From the NCBI GenBank assembly GCA_019745775.1, contig JAIESR010000104.1:1-52013 (forward strand): DNA of 52,013 nucleotides, given 5' to 3'. Both the position numbers and the translations under genes were made by a program. Below the pieces are notes generated by a model. It worked only from the letters and a program-made list of their open reading frames with translations, ran no database searches and was not told where the DNA came from. Within the stretch, counting starts at the first letter, position 1, and every line of letters starts with the position of its first letter. Positions 38,704 through 46,364 of this stretch are shown piece after piece. This stretch comes from Xanthobacteraceae bacterium (GTDB taxonomy: Bacteria > Pseudomonadota > Alphaproteobacteria > Rhizobiales > Xanthobacteraceae).

Positions 38704-38714
38704 GGTGACGGGCG

Positions 38715-41700
38715 ATGGCCACGTCCCCGTCCGGTTCGAACACGCTCGACCTTGCGGGACTGCTCAACCAAGCGACGACCCTGCACCAGCGCGGCCAGCT
38801 TGCCGACGCTGAGCGCTGCTATCGCCAGATCCTCAACGTCAGACGCGACCATGCCGAGGCGCGCCATTTCCTGGGTATCCTGCGCTTTCAACAAGGCCGC
38901 GGCGCCGAGGCGCTCGAGCTGATCGGCGCCGCGCTCAAGACCAGGCCGGACTACGCCGAGGCCTACTACAACCGGGGTAATGTTCTCTCCCAGCTCGGGC
39001 GATTTGCCGACGCGCTTGCGGACTACGACCACGCGCTGGCGCTTGCTTCAGATTACGTTGAGGCGCACCAGAACCGCGGCAATGTCTTGCTGCGGCTCGG
39101 CCGGCATACCGAGGCCCTGGCGAGCTACGACCGGGTGCTGGCGATCTACCCGGGGCAGCCCGACACCCACAACAATCGCGGCGCCGCGCTCAAGGAGCTC
39201 GGCCGGCTGGATGAAGCGCTTGCGAGTTACGAGCGGGCGGTCAAGCTGCGGCCCGGCTTTGCTGAAGCGATCACCAATTGCGGCCATGTGTTGCTGGCGC
39301 TCGGCCGCCCGCAGGACGCGCTGGCGCGCTACGACGCCGCGCTGGCGCTACGCGCCGACGACGTCGAGGCGCTCGGCGGACGCGGCAAGGTCTTGTTCGC
39401 GCTCCATCATGTCGACGACGCGCTCGCGAGCTTTGCGCGCGCGCTCAAGCTGAAGGGCGACCATGCGGACACGCTTTGCGGCTATGGGCAGGTATTGGAG
39501 GAGCTGAATCGCTCCGACGAAGCGCTCGCGGCCTACGACCGCGCACTCGCGGCCGAGCCCGAACATGCCGAGGCGTTCTATCTGCGCGGCAATTGCCTGC
39601 GCAACCTTGATCGCCTGCCGGAGGCACGAGTGTCAGATCGGCAGGTGTTCGCCCTCGCACCCGACCACGCCGAGGCGCAGCATTTCCTGGGAATCCTGCG
39701 GTTTCAGCAAGGCCGCAGTGCCGAGGCGCTGGAGCTGATCGCCGCCGCGCTGAAGACCAGGCCGGACTATCCGGAGGCGCTCCACAATCACGGTAACGTC
39801 CTCTCCCAGCTCGGACGCTTTGAAGATGCGCTCGCGAGCTATGACCAGGCGCTGGCGCTGAGCCCGGACAACATCGAGACGCATCAGAACCGTGGCAACG
39901 TGCTGCTTCAGCTCGGCCGTGGGGCAGAGGCGCTCGCCTGCTATGATCGGGTGCTCGCGCACGATCCAGGCCGGGCCGACGCCCACAACAATCGCGGCGC
40001 CGTGCTCGAGGAGCTTGGGCAGTTAGACGAGGCGCTGGCGAGCTACGAGCGCGCCGTCGCGCAACGTCCGGATTATGTCGAGGCGATCACGAATTGCGGA
40101 CACGCGCTGATTGAGCTTGGCCGCCACCACGAGGCGCTGGCGCGTTACGACGCCGCCCTGGCGCTGAACAGCCGCGATCCCGTTGTGCTGCATGCCCGCG
40201 GGGTCGCTCTTCTGATGCTATGGCGGCTCGACGAGGCGCTGGCGAGCCTGGATCACGCGTTGACCCTGCGGCCCGGCGACCCCGATACCCTGGTCAGCCG
40301 CGGGCAAGCGCTCGCGGGTATGTCTCGGCAGCAAGAAGCGCTGGCAAGCTACGATGCGGCTCTTTTAACCCGGCCGAACGATTCCGACGCGTTGCTTGAG
40401 CGGGCCGACCTGCTGCACCTCATGAACCGTCGCGAGGCAGCACTCGAAAGTTACGAGCGCGCGCTGGCCGCAAAGCCCGACTTCGCAAAAGCCAGGCTCG
40501 CGGCCTGCATGGCCGAGCTTCCGGTGCTCTATCGCAACGAAGCGGAGGTCAATGCGCAACGCGCCGCTTATGAGCGAAAGTTGGGCGCGCTGCGCGCCGA
40601 TGCCGAGCGCGGCGCTCTCGATAGCCTCGCCGATGCGATCGGCTCGTACCAGCCGTTCTTCCTCGGCTATCAGGGTTACAACGACCGCGACCTGCAATCG
40701 ATGTACGGCGGCATGGTCTGTGGCCTGATGTCGAAGCGGTATCCGCCGCTGCCGTCGCCACCTGCGCCGCAGATTGGCGAGCGCATCAGGGTTGGGATCG
40801 TCACCGGCTATTTCTGGAGGCACACGGTCTGGAAGATTCTAGTGAAGGGTTGGGTCGAACAATTGGACCGCAACCGCTTCGAGGTCTTGGGCTATCACAC
40901 CGGTTCAACCCAGGATCAGGAAACGCGTGTCGCGTCGAAGGTCTGCGACCGTTTCGTCACCGGACCGCTGCCACTCGCGCGCTGGCGGCAGATCATCGCC
41001 CAGGATGCGCCGCATGTGCTGCTCTATCCCGATATCGGCATGGATCAGATGTCGGCGGCGTTGGCTGCGCAGCGCCTCGCGCCCGTGCAATGCAATTCAT
41101 GGGGCCATCCCGACACCAGTGGCTTCCCGACTATCGACTACTTCCTCAGCAGCGATCTGATGGAGCCTGAGAACGCCGAGGAGCACTACACCGAACGGCT
41201 GGTGCGCCTCCCCAATATCGGCGTGTACTACGAGCCGCTGGATACGCAGCCATCGGTGACCACGCGCGCGGAACTCGGGCTCAAGACCGATACGATCGTG
41301 TTCTGGTGCGGGCAGTCGTTGTTCAAGTATCTGCCGCAGGATGATGAGGTGTTCCCGCGCATCGCGCGCGAAGTGAAGGACTGCCAATTTGTCTTCATCG
41401 AGCATCCGAAGGGCCCGGCCGCCACGCAGGACTTTCGGCGCCGTCTCGACGATGCCTTCCGGATGTTTGATCTCGAAGCCGCCGATCATTGCGTGATCCT
41501 GGCGCGACGCGATGAACAGGCCTTCGCCGCGGCGGTCGGGTGTTGCGACATCGTTCTGGACAGCATTGGGTGGTCTGGGTTCAATACGACGATCGAGGGC
41601 CTCGTTCACGCCCTGCCGGTGGTGACGATCAAGGGACCGTTGATGCGCGGCGCCCACACGGCCGCGCTACTGACGATGATGGACGTGAAGGATACGATTG

Positions 41701-41870
41701 CCAGCACGCGCGACAACTACGTCGCGACCGCGGTGCGGCTGGCGTGCGATCAAGCCTGGCGCTCGACGGTCAAGGACCGCATGGCCGCCAATCGACATCG
41801 GGTGTATCGGGACCGCGAATGCATTACAGCGCTCGAGGACTTCCTGGTCCGCGTAGCGACCTCGTTGTGA
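38715..41870 (+). CDS. TPR protein with O-GlcNAc-transferase (SPINDLY-like) domain, long paralogue
   Basis: 1051 residues. Residues 20-600 are about 16 tetratricopeptide repeats in the pattern YNRGNVLSQLGRFADALADY. Residues 690-1051 are a GT41-type glycosyltransferase: RVGIVTGYFWRHTVWKILVK, PHVLLYPDIGMDQM, QRLAPVQCNSWGHPDTSGFP, HYTERLVRLPN, FWCGQSLFKYLPQDDEVFPR and DIVLDSIGWSGFNTTIEGLV. Family members attach a sugar from a nucleotide donor to Ser/Thr or to surface structures; target unknown. No signal peptide, so cytoplasmic. Residues 45-212 recur at 317-484. GAGGTG precedes ATG 38715, 11 bases after rho. Confidence 0.9.
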   Translation: MATSPSGSNTLDLAGLLNQATTLHQRGQLADAERCYRQILNVRRDHAEARHFLGILRFQQGRGAEALELIGAALKTRPDYAEAYYNRGNVLSQLGRFADALADYDHALALASDYVEAHQNRGNVLLRLGRHTEALASYDRVLAIYPGQPDTHNNRGAALKELGRLDEALASYERAVKLRPGFAEAITNCGHVLLALGRPQDALARYDAALALRADDVEALGGRGKVLFALHHVDDALASFARALKLKGDHADTLCGYGQVLEELNRSDEALAAYDRALAAEPEHAEAFYLRGNCLRNLDRLPEARVSDRQVFALAPDHAEAQHFLGILRFQQGRSAEALELIAAALKTRPDYPEALHNHGNVLSQLGRFEDALASYDQALALSPDNIETHQNRGNVLLQLGRGAEALACYDRVLAHDPGRADAHNNRGAVLEELGQLDEALASYERAVAQRPDYVEAITNCGHALIELGRHHEALARYDAALALNSRDPVVLHARGVALLMLWRLDEALASLDHALTLRPGDPDTLVSRGQALAGMSRQQEALASYDAALLTRPNDSDALLERADLLHLMNRREAALESYERALAAKPDFAKARLAACMAELPVLYRNEAEVNAQRAAYERKLGALRADAERGALDSLADAIGSYQPFFLGYQGYNDRDLQSMYGGMVCGLMSKRYPPLPSPPAPQIGERIRVGIVTGYFWRHTVWKILVKGWVEQLDRNRFEVLGYHTGSTQDQETRVASKVCDRFVTGPLPLARWRQIIAQDAPHVLLYPDIGMDQMSAALAAQRLAPVQCNSWGHPDTSGFPTIDYFLSSDLMEPENAEEHYTERLVRLPNIGVYYEPLDTQPSVTTRAELGLKTDTIVFWCGQSLFKYLPQDDEVFPRIAREVKDCQFVFIEHPKGPAATQDFRRRLDDAFRMFDLEAADHCVILARRDEQAFAAAVGCCDIVLDSIGWSGFNTTIEGLVHALPVVTIKGPLMRGAHTAALLTMMDVKDTIASTRDNYVATAVRLACDQAWRSTVKDRMAANRHRVYRDRECITALEDFLVRVATSL
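38847..39350 (+). repeat. Intragenic direct repeat, copy 1
   Basis: Codes for residues 45-212 of the long TPR protein. It aligns without gaps to copy 2, 816 bases downstream, with high nucleotide similarity, for example CATTTCCTGGG, CAAGGCCGC and AAGACCAGGCCGGACTA shared in register. Confidence 0.8.
39663..40166 (+). repeat. Intragenic direct repeat, copy 2
   Basis: Codes for residues 317-484, matching residues 45-212 at a constant offset of 272. The neighbouring short paralogue has only one copy of this block. Confidence 0.8.
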
Positions 41871-41876
41871 TGGGCG

Positions 41877-44222
41877 ATGGCAAAGTCCCCATCCAGATCA
41901 AAGACGCTCGATATCGCAGAACTGCTCCAACAGGCCACGATGCTGCACCAGCGTGGGCAACTGGCCGACGCCGAGCGCTGCTATCGCCAGGTGCTCAACG
42001 TCCGGCGCGACCATCCTGAGACGCGCCACTACCTAGGCATCCTGCGTTTTCAGCAAGGCCGTAGCGCCGAGGCGCTCGAACTGATGGGCGCTGCGCTCAA
42101 GAGCAAGCCCGGCTACGCGGAGGCCTACTACAACCGCGGCAACATCCTCGCCCAGCTCGGCCGCTTTGACGATGCGCTTGCCGACTACGACCAGGCGGTG
42201 ACGCTCGCCGCCGACTATGTCGAGGCGCACCAAAACCGCGGCAATGTGCTGTTGCGGATCGGCCGTGATGCCGACGCGCTGGCGAGCTACGACCGGGTGC
42301 TGGCGCTCTATCCGAACCAGCCCGATGCCCACAACAATCGCGGCGCCGCGCTCAAGGAGCTCGGCCGGCTGGACGAGGCGCTGGCGAGCCATGAACGCGC
42401 GGTCGCGCTGCGCCCCGGCTACGTCGAAGCGATGACCAATTGCGGTCATGTGCTGCTGACGTTGGGGCGCCCGCAAGACGCGCTGGCGCGCTACGATGCG
42501 GCGCTGGCGCTTGCTGCCGATTACGTCGAAGCGCTCAACGGCCGCGCCAATGTGCTGTTCGCGCTCAACCACGTCGACGATGCGATTGTGGGCTATGAGC
42601 GCGCGCTCAAGCTCAAGAGCGACCACGCGGACACGCTCTGCGGCTACGCCCGGGCGCTGGAGGAGCTGAGCCGCTCGGACGAAGCGCTCGCACTCTACGA
42701 CCGCGCCCTCGCGGCCGAGCCCGATCATGTCGAGGCGCTCTATCTGCGCGGCAATTGCCTGCGCAATCTCAATCGCCTGCCGGAAGCGCGGGCGTCTTAT
42801 GCGCAGGCGCTCGCGCTCGCGCCCGAGCACGCCGAAGCGCGTTTCGCGGCGTGCATGGCGGAAATCGCGGTCAGCTACCAGGACGAGGCGGAGATCGCGA
42901 TCAGCCGCGCGGCCTATGCGCGGCATCTCGAAGCGCTGTGCAGCGATGCCGAAGACGGCCGCGCGCCCGGGCTCGCCAAGGGCGTCGGCTCGAACCAGCC
43001 GTTCTATCTGGCCTATCAGGGCCTGAACGACCGCGCGCTGCAGAAACGCTACGGCGAGCTCGTCTGTCGCCTGATGGCCGAGCGCTATCCGACGCCGGCG
43101 CTGCCGGAGCCGCCGCGCGACGGCGAGCCGGTCCGCATCGGCATCGTGAGCGGCTATTTTCGCCAGCATTCCAATTGGAAGATCCCGATCAGGGGTTGGA
43201 TGACCGGCCTTGATCGCCGGCGCTTCCGGCTGCTCGGCTACCACACCGGCCCGGAGCGTGACGCCGCGACCGACGAGGCCGCCGCGCTGTGCGAACGGTT
43301 CGTGCGAGGCCCGCTGTCGGTCGACGGCTGGCGCGCCGCCATCGCCGCCGACCGGCCGCATGTGCTGATCTATCCCGAAGTCGGGATGCATCCGATGGCA
43401 TCGCGGCTGGCGGCGCAGCGGCTCGCGCCGGTGCAATGCAATTCCTGGGGCCATCCCGACACCAGCGGCTTCCCGACGCTCGACTATTATCTCTCGAGCG
43501 ACCTGATGGAGCCGCCGGACGGCGAAGCGCACTACACCGAGCGGCTGGTCCGTTTGCCGAATCTCTCGATCAACTACGAGCCGTTGGACATCACCCCGGC
43601 GAGTACCAGCCGGGCCGAACTAGGGTTGCGCGACGACGCGGTCGTCTATTGGTGCGGGCAGTCGCTGTACAAGTACCTGCCGCAATACGACGAGGTCTTC
43701 GCGCGCATCGCGCGAGAGGTGCCGAACAGTCAATTTGCCTTCATCCGGTTTCGCCGCGGCGACGACGTCACCGAACTGTTCCTGAAGCGCCTCACCCGTG
43801 CGTTTGCTGCACAGGGATTGGACGCCAACCGGCACGCCGTGTTCCTGCCCCGCCTCGATCAGAGCAAGTTCTTGGGTGCCGTGGGCCGGGCCGACATTTT
43901 TCTCGACAGCCTGGGCTGGTCCGGCTGCAACTCGCTGCTCGAAAGCCTGGCGCATAATCTTCCGGTCGTGACCATGCCGGGTGTGCTGATGCGTGGCCGC
44001 CACGGCAGCGCCATCCTCACCATGATGGACGTGACGGAGACGATCGCGCCGACGGTCGACGAGTACATCGCGGCCGCCGCCCGGCTTGGCCGCGATCCCG
44101 CGTGGCGCACTGCGGTCAAGGCACGCATGGCGGCCAGCAAGCACCGCCTCTATGGCGACCGTGCCTGCATAACCGCGCTGGAAGATTTCCTCAGTCGCGA
44201 GATTTGGGCGGCCGCCCGGTAG
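41877..44222 (+). CDS. TPR protein with O-GlcNAc-transferase (SPINDLY-like) domain, short paralogue
   Basis: 781 residues, a close paralogue of the preceding gene, with about eight TPR units (20-320) and the same GT41-type domain (IGIVSGYFRQHSNWKIPIRG, PHVLIYPEVGMHPM, PVQCNSWGHPDTSGFP, WCGQSLYKYLPQYDEVFARI, DIFLDSLGWSGCNSLLESLA). It lacks the extra 272 residues. The gene starts six bases after the first stops. The start contexts, TGACGGGCGATGGC and TGATGGGCGATGGC, are nearly the same, so the tandem duplication included the ribosome-site region. Donor and target are unknown. Confidence 0.9.
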   Translation: MAKSPSRSKTLDIAELLQQATMLHQRGQLADAERCYRQVLNVRRDHPETRHYLGILRFQQGRSAEALELMGAALKSKPGYAEAYYNRGNILAQLGRFDDALADYDQAVTLAADYVEAHQNRGNVLLRIGRDADALASYDRVLALYPNQPDAHNNRGAALKELGRLDEALASHERAVALRPGYVEAMTNCGHVLLTLGRPQDALARYDAALALAADYVEALNGRANVLFALNHVDDAIVGYERALKLKSDHADTLCGYARALEELSRSDEALALYDRALAAEPDHVEALYLRGNCLRNLNRLPEARASYAQALALAPEHAEARFAACMAEIAVSYQDEAEIAISRAAYARHLEALCSDAEDGRAPGLAKGVGSNQPFYLAYQGLNDRALQKRYGELVCRLMAERYPTPALPEPPRDGEPVRIGIVSGYFRQHSNWKIPIRGWMTGLDRRRFRLLGYHTGPERDAATDEAAALCERFVRGPLSVDGWRAAIAADRPHVLIYPEVGMHPMASRLAAQRLAPVQCNSWGHPDTSGFPTLDYYLSSDLMEPPDGEAHYTERLVRLPNLSINYEPLDITPASTSRAELGLRDDAVVYWCGQSLYKYLPQYDEVFARIAREVPNSQFAFIRFRRGDDVTELFLKRLTRAFAAQGLDANRHAVFLPRLDQSKFLGAVGRADIFLDSLGWSGCNSLLESLAHNLPVVTMPGVLMRGRHGSAILTMMDVTETIAPTVDEYIAAAARLGRDPAWRTAVKARMAASKHRLYGDRACITALEDFLSREIWAAAR

Positions 44223-44290
44223 CGGCGTATTCCGCCGGTTGTGTTAGCATGAACGAAAGCCGCGTAAGCGGCGATCTCCGGGGAGCGCCC

Positions 44291-45247
44291 ATGTCACCGT
44301 TCAAACTACATATTCGCGTTCTGGCTCTGCTGCTGGCGCTCGCGCCAATGCCGGCGGCGGCACAGTTCGTCCCGCCGACCATGGAGCTGCGCAAGATCGC
44401 GCCCGACGTCTACACCATGCAGCACCCGTTCGGCTCCAGCAACGCGTCGTTCGTGGTGACGCCCGACGGCGTGGTGGTGTTCGACGCCGACATCCGCACC
44501 GCCGATCAGACCATGGCGGCGATCCGCAAGACCACCGACAAGAAGGTGCGCTATGTCGTGATCTCGCATCCGTCCGGCGACCACGCCACTGGCGCCTGGC
44601 ACTTCCGCGAAGACAAGCCCACGGTCATCGGCTCGCGCAAGCAGATGCGCGATCTCTACCAGCAGGAGCGCGCCGAGTTCCTGGAGCGGCGCGGCTCCAC
44701 GGCCGCGCAGTTCGCGGCCTACAAGAACGCCGAGCTGGTGCACCCGGAGGTCGGCTTCGACGGCGCACTGACGTTGCAGTTCGGCGGGTTGACGTTCCAG
44801 ATCGTCGAGGAAGGCAGCGCCCATTCGACCAGCGACGTCACGATGTTCGTGCCGCAACGCCGGGTGATGATGATGGGCGACCTGCTCAACACCGAGATCC
44901 ATCCCGGACCCGGCGAGTCGGCGCAGGTGTTCTTCTCCAACGCAGGGAATTGGATTACGCTACTGAACCGCATCATCGCAAAGCAATTGCCGATCGATAC
45001 CTACATCCCCGGCCATGGTCCCGTGCATATCGGCCGCGGCGTCGCCGACCTCGAGGAACAGCGGCGCTACTTCATCGTCATGCGCGACGCGGTGTCGAAG
45101 ATGATCATGGCCGGCAAGAGCGTCGAGGCGATCCAGAAGGAATTCGAGACGCCCAAGGAATTTGCGCACTATCGTGGGCCGCAGCGCCAGCGCGCGTTCA
45201 TCAACCTGTTCTACCACCAGCTCCTGGAGCGGGGCTTCTGGCCGTGA
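44291..45247 (+). CDS. Secreted metallo-beta-lactamase-fold protein with altered metal motif
   Basis: 318 residues with a signal peptide (IRVLALLLALAPMPAAAQ) from ATG 44291, which follows GGGGAG; ATG 44249 would add 14 residues. Domain features: NASFVVTPDGVVVFDADIRT, YVVISHPSGDHATGAWHF, a downstream His in EEGSAHSTSDVTMF, MMMGDLLNTEIHPG and a final YIPGHGP. The canonical HxHxDH is HPSGDH here (His93, Ser95, Asp97, His98), so one of the first-site zinc ligands is replaced by serine. The protein may bind one metal or none. Substrate unknown. The TctC gene follows 10 bases later. Confidence 0.85.
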   Translation: MSPFKLHIRVLALLLALAPMPAAAQFVPPTMELRKIAPDVYTMQHPFGSSNASFVVTPDGVVVFDADIRTADQTMAAIRKTTDKKVRYVVISHPSGDHATGAWHFREDKPTVIGSRKQMRDLYQQERAEFLERRGSTAAQFAAYKNAELVHPEVGFDGALTLQFGGLTFQIVEEGSAHSTSDVTMFVPQRRVMMMGDLLNTEIHPGPGESAQVFFSNAGNWITLLNRIIAKQLPIDTYIPGHGPVHIGRGVADLEEQRRYFIVMRDAVSKMIMAGKSVEAIQKEFETPKEFAHYRGPQRQRAFINLFYHQLLERGFWP

Positions 45248-45257
45248 GGGCGGCAAC

Positions 45258-46364
45258 ATGAGGAGCAGTAGGGTGGGCAAAGGCGCGGTCCGCAGGCACG
45301 GGAGATGCCACGTGCACGCTGGAGCGCCGTGCCCGCCAAGGGCGTGCGACATCAGCCACCGGTTTCGGTGGGCACGCTTCGCGCCGCTGGCGCGGCGCTG
45401 CGCTTTGCCCACCCTACGGCGGCTTGCCGCGTTGCTCATGTTTTGCATGCCTGCAACGGCGCAGGACTGGCCCACCCGCAGCGTCCGTATCGTCTCGCCG
45501 TTCGCCGCCGGCGGCTCTTCGGACACCGTCGGTCGCGTCATCGGCGAGAGCCTGAGCGAGAAATTCGGCCAGCAGTTCGTGCTGGAGAATCGCGGCGGCG
45601 CCGGCGGCCTGATCGGCTCGGCGCAGGTCGCAAGCGCGCCGCCCGACGGCTACACCTTCCTGATCTCGTCGATCGGCACGCACGTGATTGCGCCGCTGAC
45701 GAGTGCCAAAGCCGGCTACGACCCGGTGACCAGTTTCACCAACGTCGCCTATGTCGGCGGCCCGCCGATCGTGATCGTCGTGCATCCCTCGCTCGGCGTG
45801 AAAAGCCTGAGCGAGCTGCTGGCGCTGCTCAAGAAGCAGTCGGAGCCATTGCCCTACGTTTCGCCGGGGCCGGGCACGCTCGGCCATCTCGTCGGCGAGT
45901 ACTGGGCCGAAAAGGAAAAGGTCCGGCTGGCGCACGTCGCCTACAAGGGCTCGGGCCAGGCGATGAACGATCTCGTCGCCGGTCACGTGAAGCTCGGCTC
46001 GCTCACCTGGACCGCGGCGCTCGGCCAGATGAAGGGCGGCACGGTGATCCCGATCGCGGTGTCGTCGGCGCGGCGGATGCCGGGCTTCGAGAACGTGCCG
46101 ACGCTGAAAGAACTCAGCTATGCCGACATGGCGGTGACGACCTGGTTCGGCTTCGCCGGACCGGCTGGCCTGCCGGCAGGCATCACCAAGCAGATGAACG
46201 AAGCGATCGGCGCCGCGCTCGACAATCCGAAGGCTGGCGGGCGGCTCGTCGCATCAGGCTTCGAGCTTGAGCGGATGTCACCGGCCGAGCTGACGACCTT
46301 CATTAAGGACGATCTCGCGAAATGGGCACCGCTGGCGAAGCGGCTGATTTCAGAACCCAAGTAA
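45258..46364 (+). CDS. TctC/Bug-family substrate-binding protein with repeat-derived N-terminal insertion
   Basis: The mature part is a clear TctC receptor: DWPTRSVRIVSPFAAGGSSD, ENRGGAGGLIGSAQVA, APPDGYTFLISS and VRLAHVAYKGSGQAMNDLVA. ATG 45258 has GAGGG seven bases upstream but is followed by about 50 residues encoded by a 150-bp repeat before the hydrophobic stretch LAALLMFCMPATAQ. Without the repeat the start would read MRS-RRLAALLMFCMPATAQ, an ordinary signal peptide. Translation could instead begin at TTG 45405, whose N-terminus LPTLRRLAALLMF is a usable signal. Whether the extended form is exported is unknown. No TctA/B nearby. Confidence 0.83.
   Translation: MRSSRVGKGAVRRHGRCHVHAGAPCPPRACDISHRFRWARFAPLARRCALPTLRRLAALLMFCMPATAQDWPTRSVRIVSPFAAGGSSDTVGRVIGESLSEKFGQQFVLENRGGAGGLIGSAQVASAPPDGYTFLISSIGTHVIAPLTSAKAGYDPVTSFTNVAYVGGPPIVIVVHPSLGVKSLSELLALLKKQSEPLPYVSPGPGTLGHLVGEYWAEKEKVRLAHVAYKGSGQAMNDLVAGHVKLGSLTWTAALGQMKGGTVIPIAVSSARRMPGFENVPTLKELSYADMAVTTWFGFAGPAGLPAGITKQMNEAIGAALDNPKAGGRLVASGFELERMSPAELTTFIKDDLAKWAPLAKRLISEPK
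45268..45417. repeat. 150-bp inverted-terminus repeat inside a coding sequence
   Basis: Begins GTAGGGTGGGCAAAGGCGC (45268-45286) and ends GCGCTTTGCCCACCCTAC (45400-45417); the ends are inverted repeats differing by one base. I recognise the GTAGGGTGGGCAAAG...CTTTGCCCACCCTAC pattern as an interspersed repeat of Bradyrhizobium-like genomes. Its length, 150, is a multiple of three and it is open in the frame of the TctC gene. Confidence 0.8.

Follow-up and report, generated by a model that had tools for sequence, protein, structure and literature searches.

A GTAG-tagged REPIN that leaves the reading frame open near the start of a tctC-type receptor gene of a Xanthobacteraceae bacterium

REPIN/RAYT systems, as set out in the accessible part of PMC3116915, present a GTAG tag, inverted REP doublets with a variable spacer, many dispersed copies, and a RAYT gene bracketed by the same REP, and all these features are shared by the repeat family described here. 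With respect to the REPINs of that account, the copy studied by us differs in standing in the 5' end of a gene, and its family differs in having loop size classes and REPs of up to 66-71 nt. For Bradyrhizobium and Rhodopseudomonas, the accessible part of PMC3733652 reports GTAG REPs, their dimers, RAYT units and intragenic REPs, including N-terminal ones. The GTAG-3 and GTAG-14 families of these genera have in common with ours the head-to-head dimers, the variable GC-rich loops, the placement at gene 3' ends, the stop codons furnished by GTAG, and the existence of intragenic and N-terminal cases; this likeness rests on the descriptions in that part of PMC3733652. Intragenic and N-terminal REPs are thus already published.

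A third system, the Rickettsia palindromic elements (RPEs), is likewise palindromic, of about 150 bp and inserted in frame in genes, according to the accessible part of PMC10969869. RPEs are described there as carrying a conserved peptide, with nearly half of them located in ORFs, whereas the family presented here is mainly extragenic and has a RAYT. By placement and RAYT our family is set apart from the RPEs described there; lengths, spacers and open frames vary among its copies. In the text of open-licence PMC articles, the terms REP-associated tyrosine transposase and Bradyrhizobium were found together in PMC3733652 only, and three literal strings had no match in that text, figures being outside the search. 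As far as the accessible parts of the open-licence PMC literature go, we recognised no published case of a REP within a signal-peptide sequence.

The element in the 5' end of tctC

The window, i.e. the whole stretch of DNA that was analysed, comprises 52,013 nucleotides, and the features relevant to this work are collected in Table 1. The insert found in the tctC-type receptor gene is a REPIN, with two GTAG-tagged REP hairpins placed face to face. Its ends, GTAGGGTGGGCAAAG on the left and CTTTGCCCACCCTAC on the right, are inverted with respect to each other (18 nt, 94% complementary), and the region 45260-45425 folds with a z of -4.48 as DNA and -4.44 as RNA, compared with 200 shuffles. The order at the junction is the TGA of the upstream hydrolase gene (45245-45247), GGGCGGCAAC, ATG (45258) AGG AGC A, the element and then GGCGGCTTGCC. 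In this way the element begins 10 nt into the receptor gene, after codon 3, and the hydrolase stop lies 10 bp from ATG 45258 and 20 bp from the element.

Table 1. Features of the hydrolase-tctC junction and of the REPIN it contains
Feature	Position	Strand	Evidence
Metallo-beta-lactamase-fold hydrolase gene, upstream of tctC	44249..45247	+	PF00753 E 1.5e-15; 84% orthologue in G006
GAGG, Shine-Dalgarno-like, 8 nt 5' of ATG 45258, overlapping the upstream stop	45246..45249	+	
tctC-type receptor gene containing the element, open throughout	45258..46364	+	ORF list; PF03401 E 1.4e-53
REPIN, GTAG...CTAC, 150 bp	45268..45417	+	inverted ends; belongs to a set of 41 inverted pairs found genome-wide
Left REP hairpin of 70 nt with a single stem mismatch, GTAGGGTGGGCA...TGCCCGCC	45268..45337	+	
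Alternative GTG start within the element; AGGAG supplied by tctC codons 2-3	45273..45275	+	
Spacer separating left and right REPs	45338..45366	+	by difference from the hairpin coordinates; spacers vary among copies
Right REP hairpin, 51 nt, inverted, outer stem perfect	45367..45417	-	
Alternative TTG start in the right REP, without Shine-Dalgarno-like match; product MPTLRRLAALLMFCMPATAQ	45405..45407	+	

The original prediction had proposed a 150-bp element with inverted ends and no in-frame stop, whose removal leaves a normal signal peptide, and all of this was confirmed: read off the element-free sequence, the leader is MRSRRLAALLMFCMPATAQ, with 19 residues ahead of the mature start. The predicted read-through was borne out as well. 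The tctC frame is open across the element, which adds 50 codons for a leader of 69 residues, and the gene still reads through because the insert measures 150 bp and is open in this frame; of the 368 residues, 92-362 align with positions 2-271 of the TctC profile PF03401, which has 274 positions. Across the insert we counted 51 residues, 12 of them R or K and one D or E.

The search of 45150-45550 against Rfam gave no match up to E 1, and a search of plasmids gave none either. As a repeat the element belongs to a known kind; what is unusual is solely that it stands inside a gene. Elsewhere in the window, TPR-like genes at 38705-44222 and their surroundings contain long direct repeats, among them periodic units of 102 bp, which suggests tandem paralogues.

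The repeat family and its RAYT transposases

When a 191-bp region was compared with the genome it comes from, 32 places matched, one of them over the full length. The 15-base end is present 42 times in the forward and 45 times in the reverse orientation in the 6.3-Mb genome with at most one mismatch, compared with 2 forward and 0 reverse for the control pattern read backwards, so the repeat count is far beyond chance. From 45 fetched stretches plus the window we obtained 41 inverted REP pairs and six ends without a partner (at most two mismatches). The pairs measure 86-229 bp, apart from one of 630 bp, and the spacer sequence varies between them. Each end resembles a hairpin made of GTAG, GGTGGGCA, a loop and then TGCCCACC; with few exceptions the ends begin with GTAG, and, allowing one mismatch, 79 of 82 ends have the partner TGCCCACC, as against 37 of 719 trials in which it was sought up to 80 nt from a random point. 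REP lengths cluster at 29-31, 36-40, 45-52 and 66-71 nt, so that the loops seem to fall into size classes. The exact 15-mer end is present in 180 of 391 genomes of the family Xanthobacteraceae.

In 73 of 82 ends a C or a T stands just outside GTAG, and the inverted identity of the flanks over 2 bp is 0.40; we read this as a preferred foot base. A target-site duplication was also considered and rejected, direct flank identity for 2-8 bp being no higher than the largest of 300 shuffles.

The 630-bp copy (C147:264199-264828, L104) brackets an ORF of 177 residues on the minus strand. This ORF matches the NCBIfam model of REP-associated tyrosine transposases (NF047646, REP_Tyr_transpos) with 181.9 bits (cut-off 80, E 6e-54) and PDB 4ER8 (TnpArep), which we take to be the E. 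coli protein, with E 9.3e-43. The search of the genome with Pfam PF01797 gave no match, because the same RAYT reaches 18 bits against Y1_Tnp, where the cut-off is 23. A transposase-free repeat was discarded in view of the RAYT inside the 630-bp copy, as scored with NCBIfam. Furthermore, two genomes of another genus of the same family, G380 and G342, carry RAYTs with 67% and 64% identity to it, again enclosed by this REP in inverted orientation. The RAYT bracketed by the window-type REP probably moved the element. By eye, the 229-bp copy (L065 2001-2229) looks like an internal-deletion derivative of the RAYT-bearing copy, as it shares stretches with the ends of the latter (L104 2001-2630).

The genome has a second RAYT, on contig C77, and its flanking REP differs, being GTAGGATGGGTTGAGCG, which has 23 + 21 matches in the genome with at most two mismatches (control 0 + 1). 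This RAYT unit, GTAGGATGGGTTGAGCG...CGAAACCCATC, occupies 1053-1871 of the stretch G000 C77:3500-6500 (L243) and is flanked by long inverted repeats (I1: 71 nt, 99%). According to PMC3733652, species with several GTAG families carry repeat-specific RAYT units, and two RAYTs with REPs of their own fit that observation. In the family Xanthobacteraceae, a RAYT match was obtained in 162 of the 391 genomes, above the cut-off in 146. REP number and RAYT presence are not coupled in every genome: G027, with its 26 + 22 exact REP ends, lacks a RAYT match, and two further REP-rich genomes, G205 and G155, are absent from the listed RAYT matches.

To sum up the class of the element, the known REPIN/RAYT features found here are GTAG with a palindrome, dispersed inverted pairs, a RAYT flanked by the same REP and a mainly extragenic location. 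The earlier interpretation stands as far as it saw a mobile-type repeat inserted near the start of tctC without loss of frame, and is not supported as to the class, since the likeness to RPEs turned out to be an analogy only: the element is a GTAG REPIN of a mostly extragenic family with its own RAYT.

Placement near gene 3' ends and the tctC locus in other genomes

Genes were called by an ORF and GC3 rule on element-free sequence, and random points were taken from the same loci, intergenic and genic alike. Under these conditions, 31 of the 41 copies are located at most 45 bp from the 3' end of a predicted gene that points at them, compared with 194 among 7236 random points; counting L072 would raise the number of copies to 32, provided that the gene there is the plus-strand ORF. 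Stop codons supplied by GTAG, as reported in PMC3733652, are seen in five copies (L066, L071, L084, the first pair of L090, and L101), where the TAG of the tag closes a predicted ORF. The REP family is mainly extragenic, by gene 3' ends, and the window copy is intragenic. Even so, this copy obeys the family rule, as it is found 20 bp past the upstream stop; only 10 bp separate that stop from the tctC start, and so the copy falls within the gene.

Twenty-one of the 41 copies, the window copy included, were picked by eye as having a downstream ORF on the same strand. Among the other 20, 13 have a start beyond the element with a Shine-Dalgarno match of at least 4 nt; in six, the starts listed beyond the element have only a weaker match or none; in the remaining one (L072) the downstream ORF is probably spurious. 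L072 was examined as a second in-frame copy and rejected: its frame of 706 codons, open through the element on one strand, has no Pfam match, while on the other strand an ORF matching HD weakly (24.3 bits, cut-off 22) ends 27 bp before the element. In another copy, L096, an ORF would start 62 bp upstream of the empty site, and a GTG with a Shine-Dalgarno match is located 25 bp beyond the element. The search for further in-frame copies, proposed in the original prediction, thus ended as follows: with these rule-based gene calls, the window copy is the sole case found among 41 that stands between a supported start and the body of a gene, and no second one was convincing.

The frequency with which copies of this family would leave a reading frame intact was also evaluated. 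Their lengths leave a remainder of 0, 1 and 2 on division by three in 14, 7 and 20 of the 41 copies, and among the 14 divisible by three, 36 of 84 frames are open. An arbitrary frame would thus be kept in 6.0 of 41 copies, about 15%, and for this reason a single in-frame insertion needs no special cause.

The best TctC apart from the window gene was 47% identical in eight genomes of the genus, the own genome included, and 51% in the 391 family genomes, for matches to E 1e-95 only. An additional scan of genome contigs, of which the best 80 of 164 TctC loci were kept, gave 30-39%, and records nearest to the genome of the window may be missing from it. These searches yielded no close orthologue whose start is intact, and hence no direct view of the empty site. 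By eye, the leaders of the homologues in 33 loci, one of which is truncated by a contig end, look ordinary, mostly of about 20-40 residues. No REP end with at most two mismatches was found in these 33 loci, six of which are paralogues from the same genome, or in the 80 further loci; an N-terminal segment of this kind shared with orthologues, which would have spoken against an insertion, was not encountered, nor was any proof that translation begins downstream of the element.

More information came from the upstream gene. Only two others of the 391 genomes have an orthologue of the hydrolase at E 1e-70, G006 (same genus, 84%) and G037 (66%). The DNA of G006 aligns with the window at 77% identity over 2471 bases, up to 45254, 3 bp short of the tctC ATG, and resumes at 46205. 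Of tctC, G006 keeps only about the last 40 codons (72.5% over 40 residues; L239 2447-2586), which follow the hydrolase gene directly; the locus contains no exact REP end. The presence of the hydrolase and a tctC remnant in G006 indicates that the gene pair predates the split. It also follows that tctC is dispensable there, and silencing in the genome of the window is plausible. Either the insertion came after the split from G006, or G006 lost the element together with tctC. In G037, the ORF past the hydrolase 3' end is a different one, on the opposite strand, and this neighbour has no tblastn match to the TctC of the window at E 1e-3.

Origin of the insertion and alternative explanations

We consider it very probable that a RAYT-type REPIN inserted past the hydrolase stop, fell after codon 3 of tctC and remained in frame by chance. 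The insert is a non-autonomous pair of GTAG REP hairpins, a type that RAYT transposases disperse, and it would have entered just downstream of the hydrolase stop, as most of its sister copies did with respect to their neighbours. With the tctC start 10 bp beyond that stop, such an insertion would land after codon 3; as the insert is by chance 150 bp long and open in the tctC frame, read-through is preserved and 50 codons are gained, an arginine-rich stretch preceding the signal-peptide core.

As for the effect, the hairpin 10 nt into tctC would be expected to lower expression, and translation, if there is any, may with about an even chance still begin at ATG 45258 or GTG 45273. By two longer RNA models, the element raises the predicted cost of opening the region -18..+15 from 28.1 to 33.0 and 32.8 kcal/mol, whereas by the shortest model, truncated within the element, the cost falls from 28.1 to 21.5; this evidence is weak and depends on an ambiguous model.

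Among the alternatives, a silenced tctC, i.e. a young pseudogene whose frame has not yet decayed, survives best and is a real possibility, if a tentative one. The loss in G006 of all but about 40 tctC codons and the strong hairpin so close to the start speak for it; against it, the remaining 310 codons are open and match nearly the whole TctC profile.

Somewhat less likely, and on balance doubtful, is that the element forms an untranslated 5' leader hairpin and that ribosomes start at TTG 45405 or further in. A start at this TTG would yield a compact leader, 13 of the 20 other picked copies have a supported start beyond the element, and PMC3733652 points out that many N-terminal REPs may be extragenic, as translation may begin downstream. 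However, among the in-frame starts listed for the window, a Shine-Dalgarno-like match of at least 4 nt occurs only at ATG 45258 (GAGG), GTG 45273 (AGGAG) and GTG 45312 (GGAG), all before or inside the element, and at none at or beyond its end; opening the TTG 45405 region would cost 36.2 kcal/mol. The TTG, named in the original prediction as the other candidate start, has no such match.

It is unlikely, more so than either of these two readings, that the receptor is made from ATG 45258 with the arginine-rich extension encoded by the REPIN, the hairpin and the long n-region setting its production or export; if this were true, a selfish repeat of gene 3' ends would have become a coding, regulatory leader by way of a tight gene junction. 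We think that a receptor made in smaller amounts with a long leader, or else a gene recently turned pseudogene, is likelier than a new function.

The two remaining explanations have very little probability. A Rickettsia-type palindromic element, of a family kept mainly as in-frame, peptide-coding inserts, would agree with a palindromic insert of about 150 bp in frame, like those in the accessible part of PMC10969869, but this family is mostly outside genes, close to 3' ends, is accompanied by a RAYT, and its copies vary in length modulo three and in open frames. An assembly error that fused two unrelated places at a repeat is conceivable in a draft genome in which some copies are close to contig ends (C112:62, C42:151), but the element has a single full-length match in the genome, its removal restores a good tctC gene start, and in G006 the same hydrolase is followed by a tctC remnant.

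The chance in-frame insertion of a REPIN past the hydrolase stop suggests a simple route for extragenic repeats to become coding, namely that in a compact operon an insertion past a stop strikes the start of the next gene. For in-frame intragenic repeats, the placement at 3' ends and the rate at which frames are kept by chance should be weighed before selection for coding is invoked.
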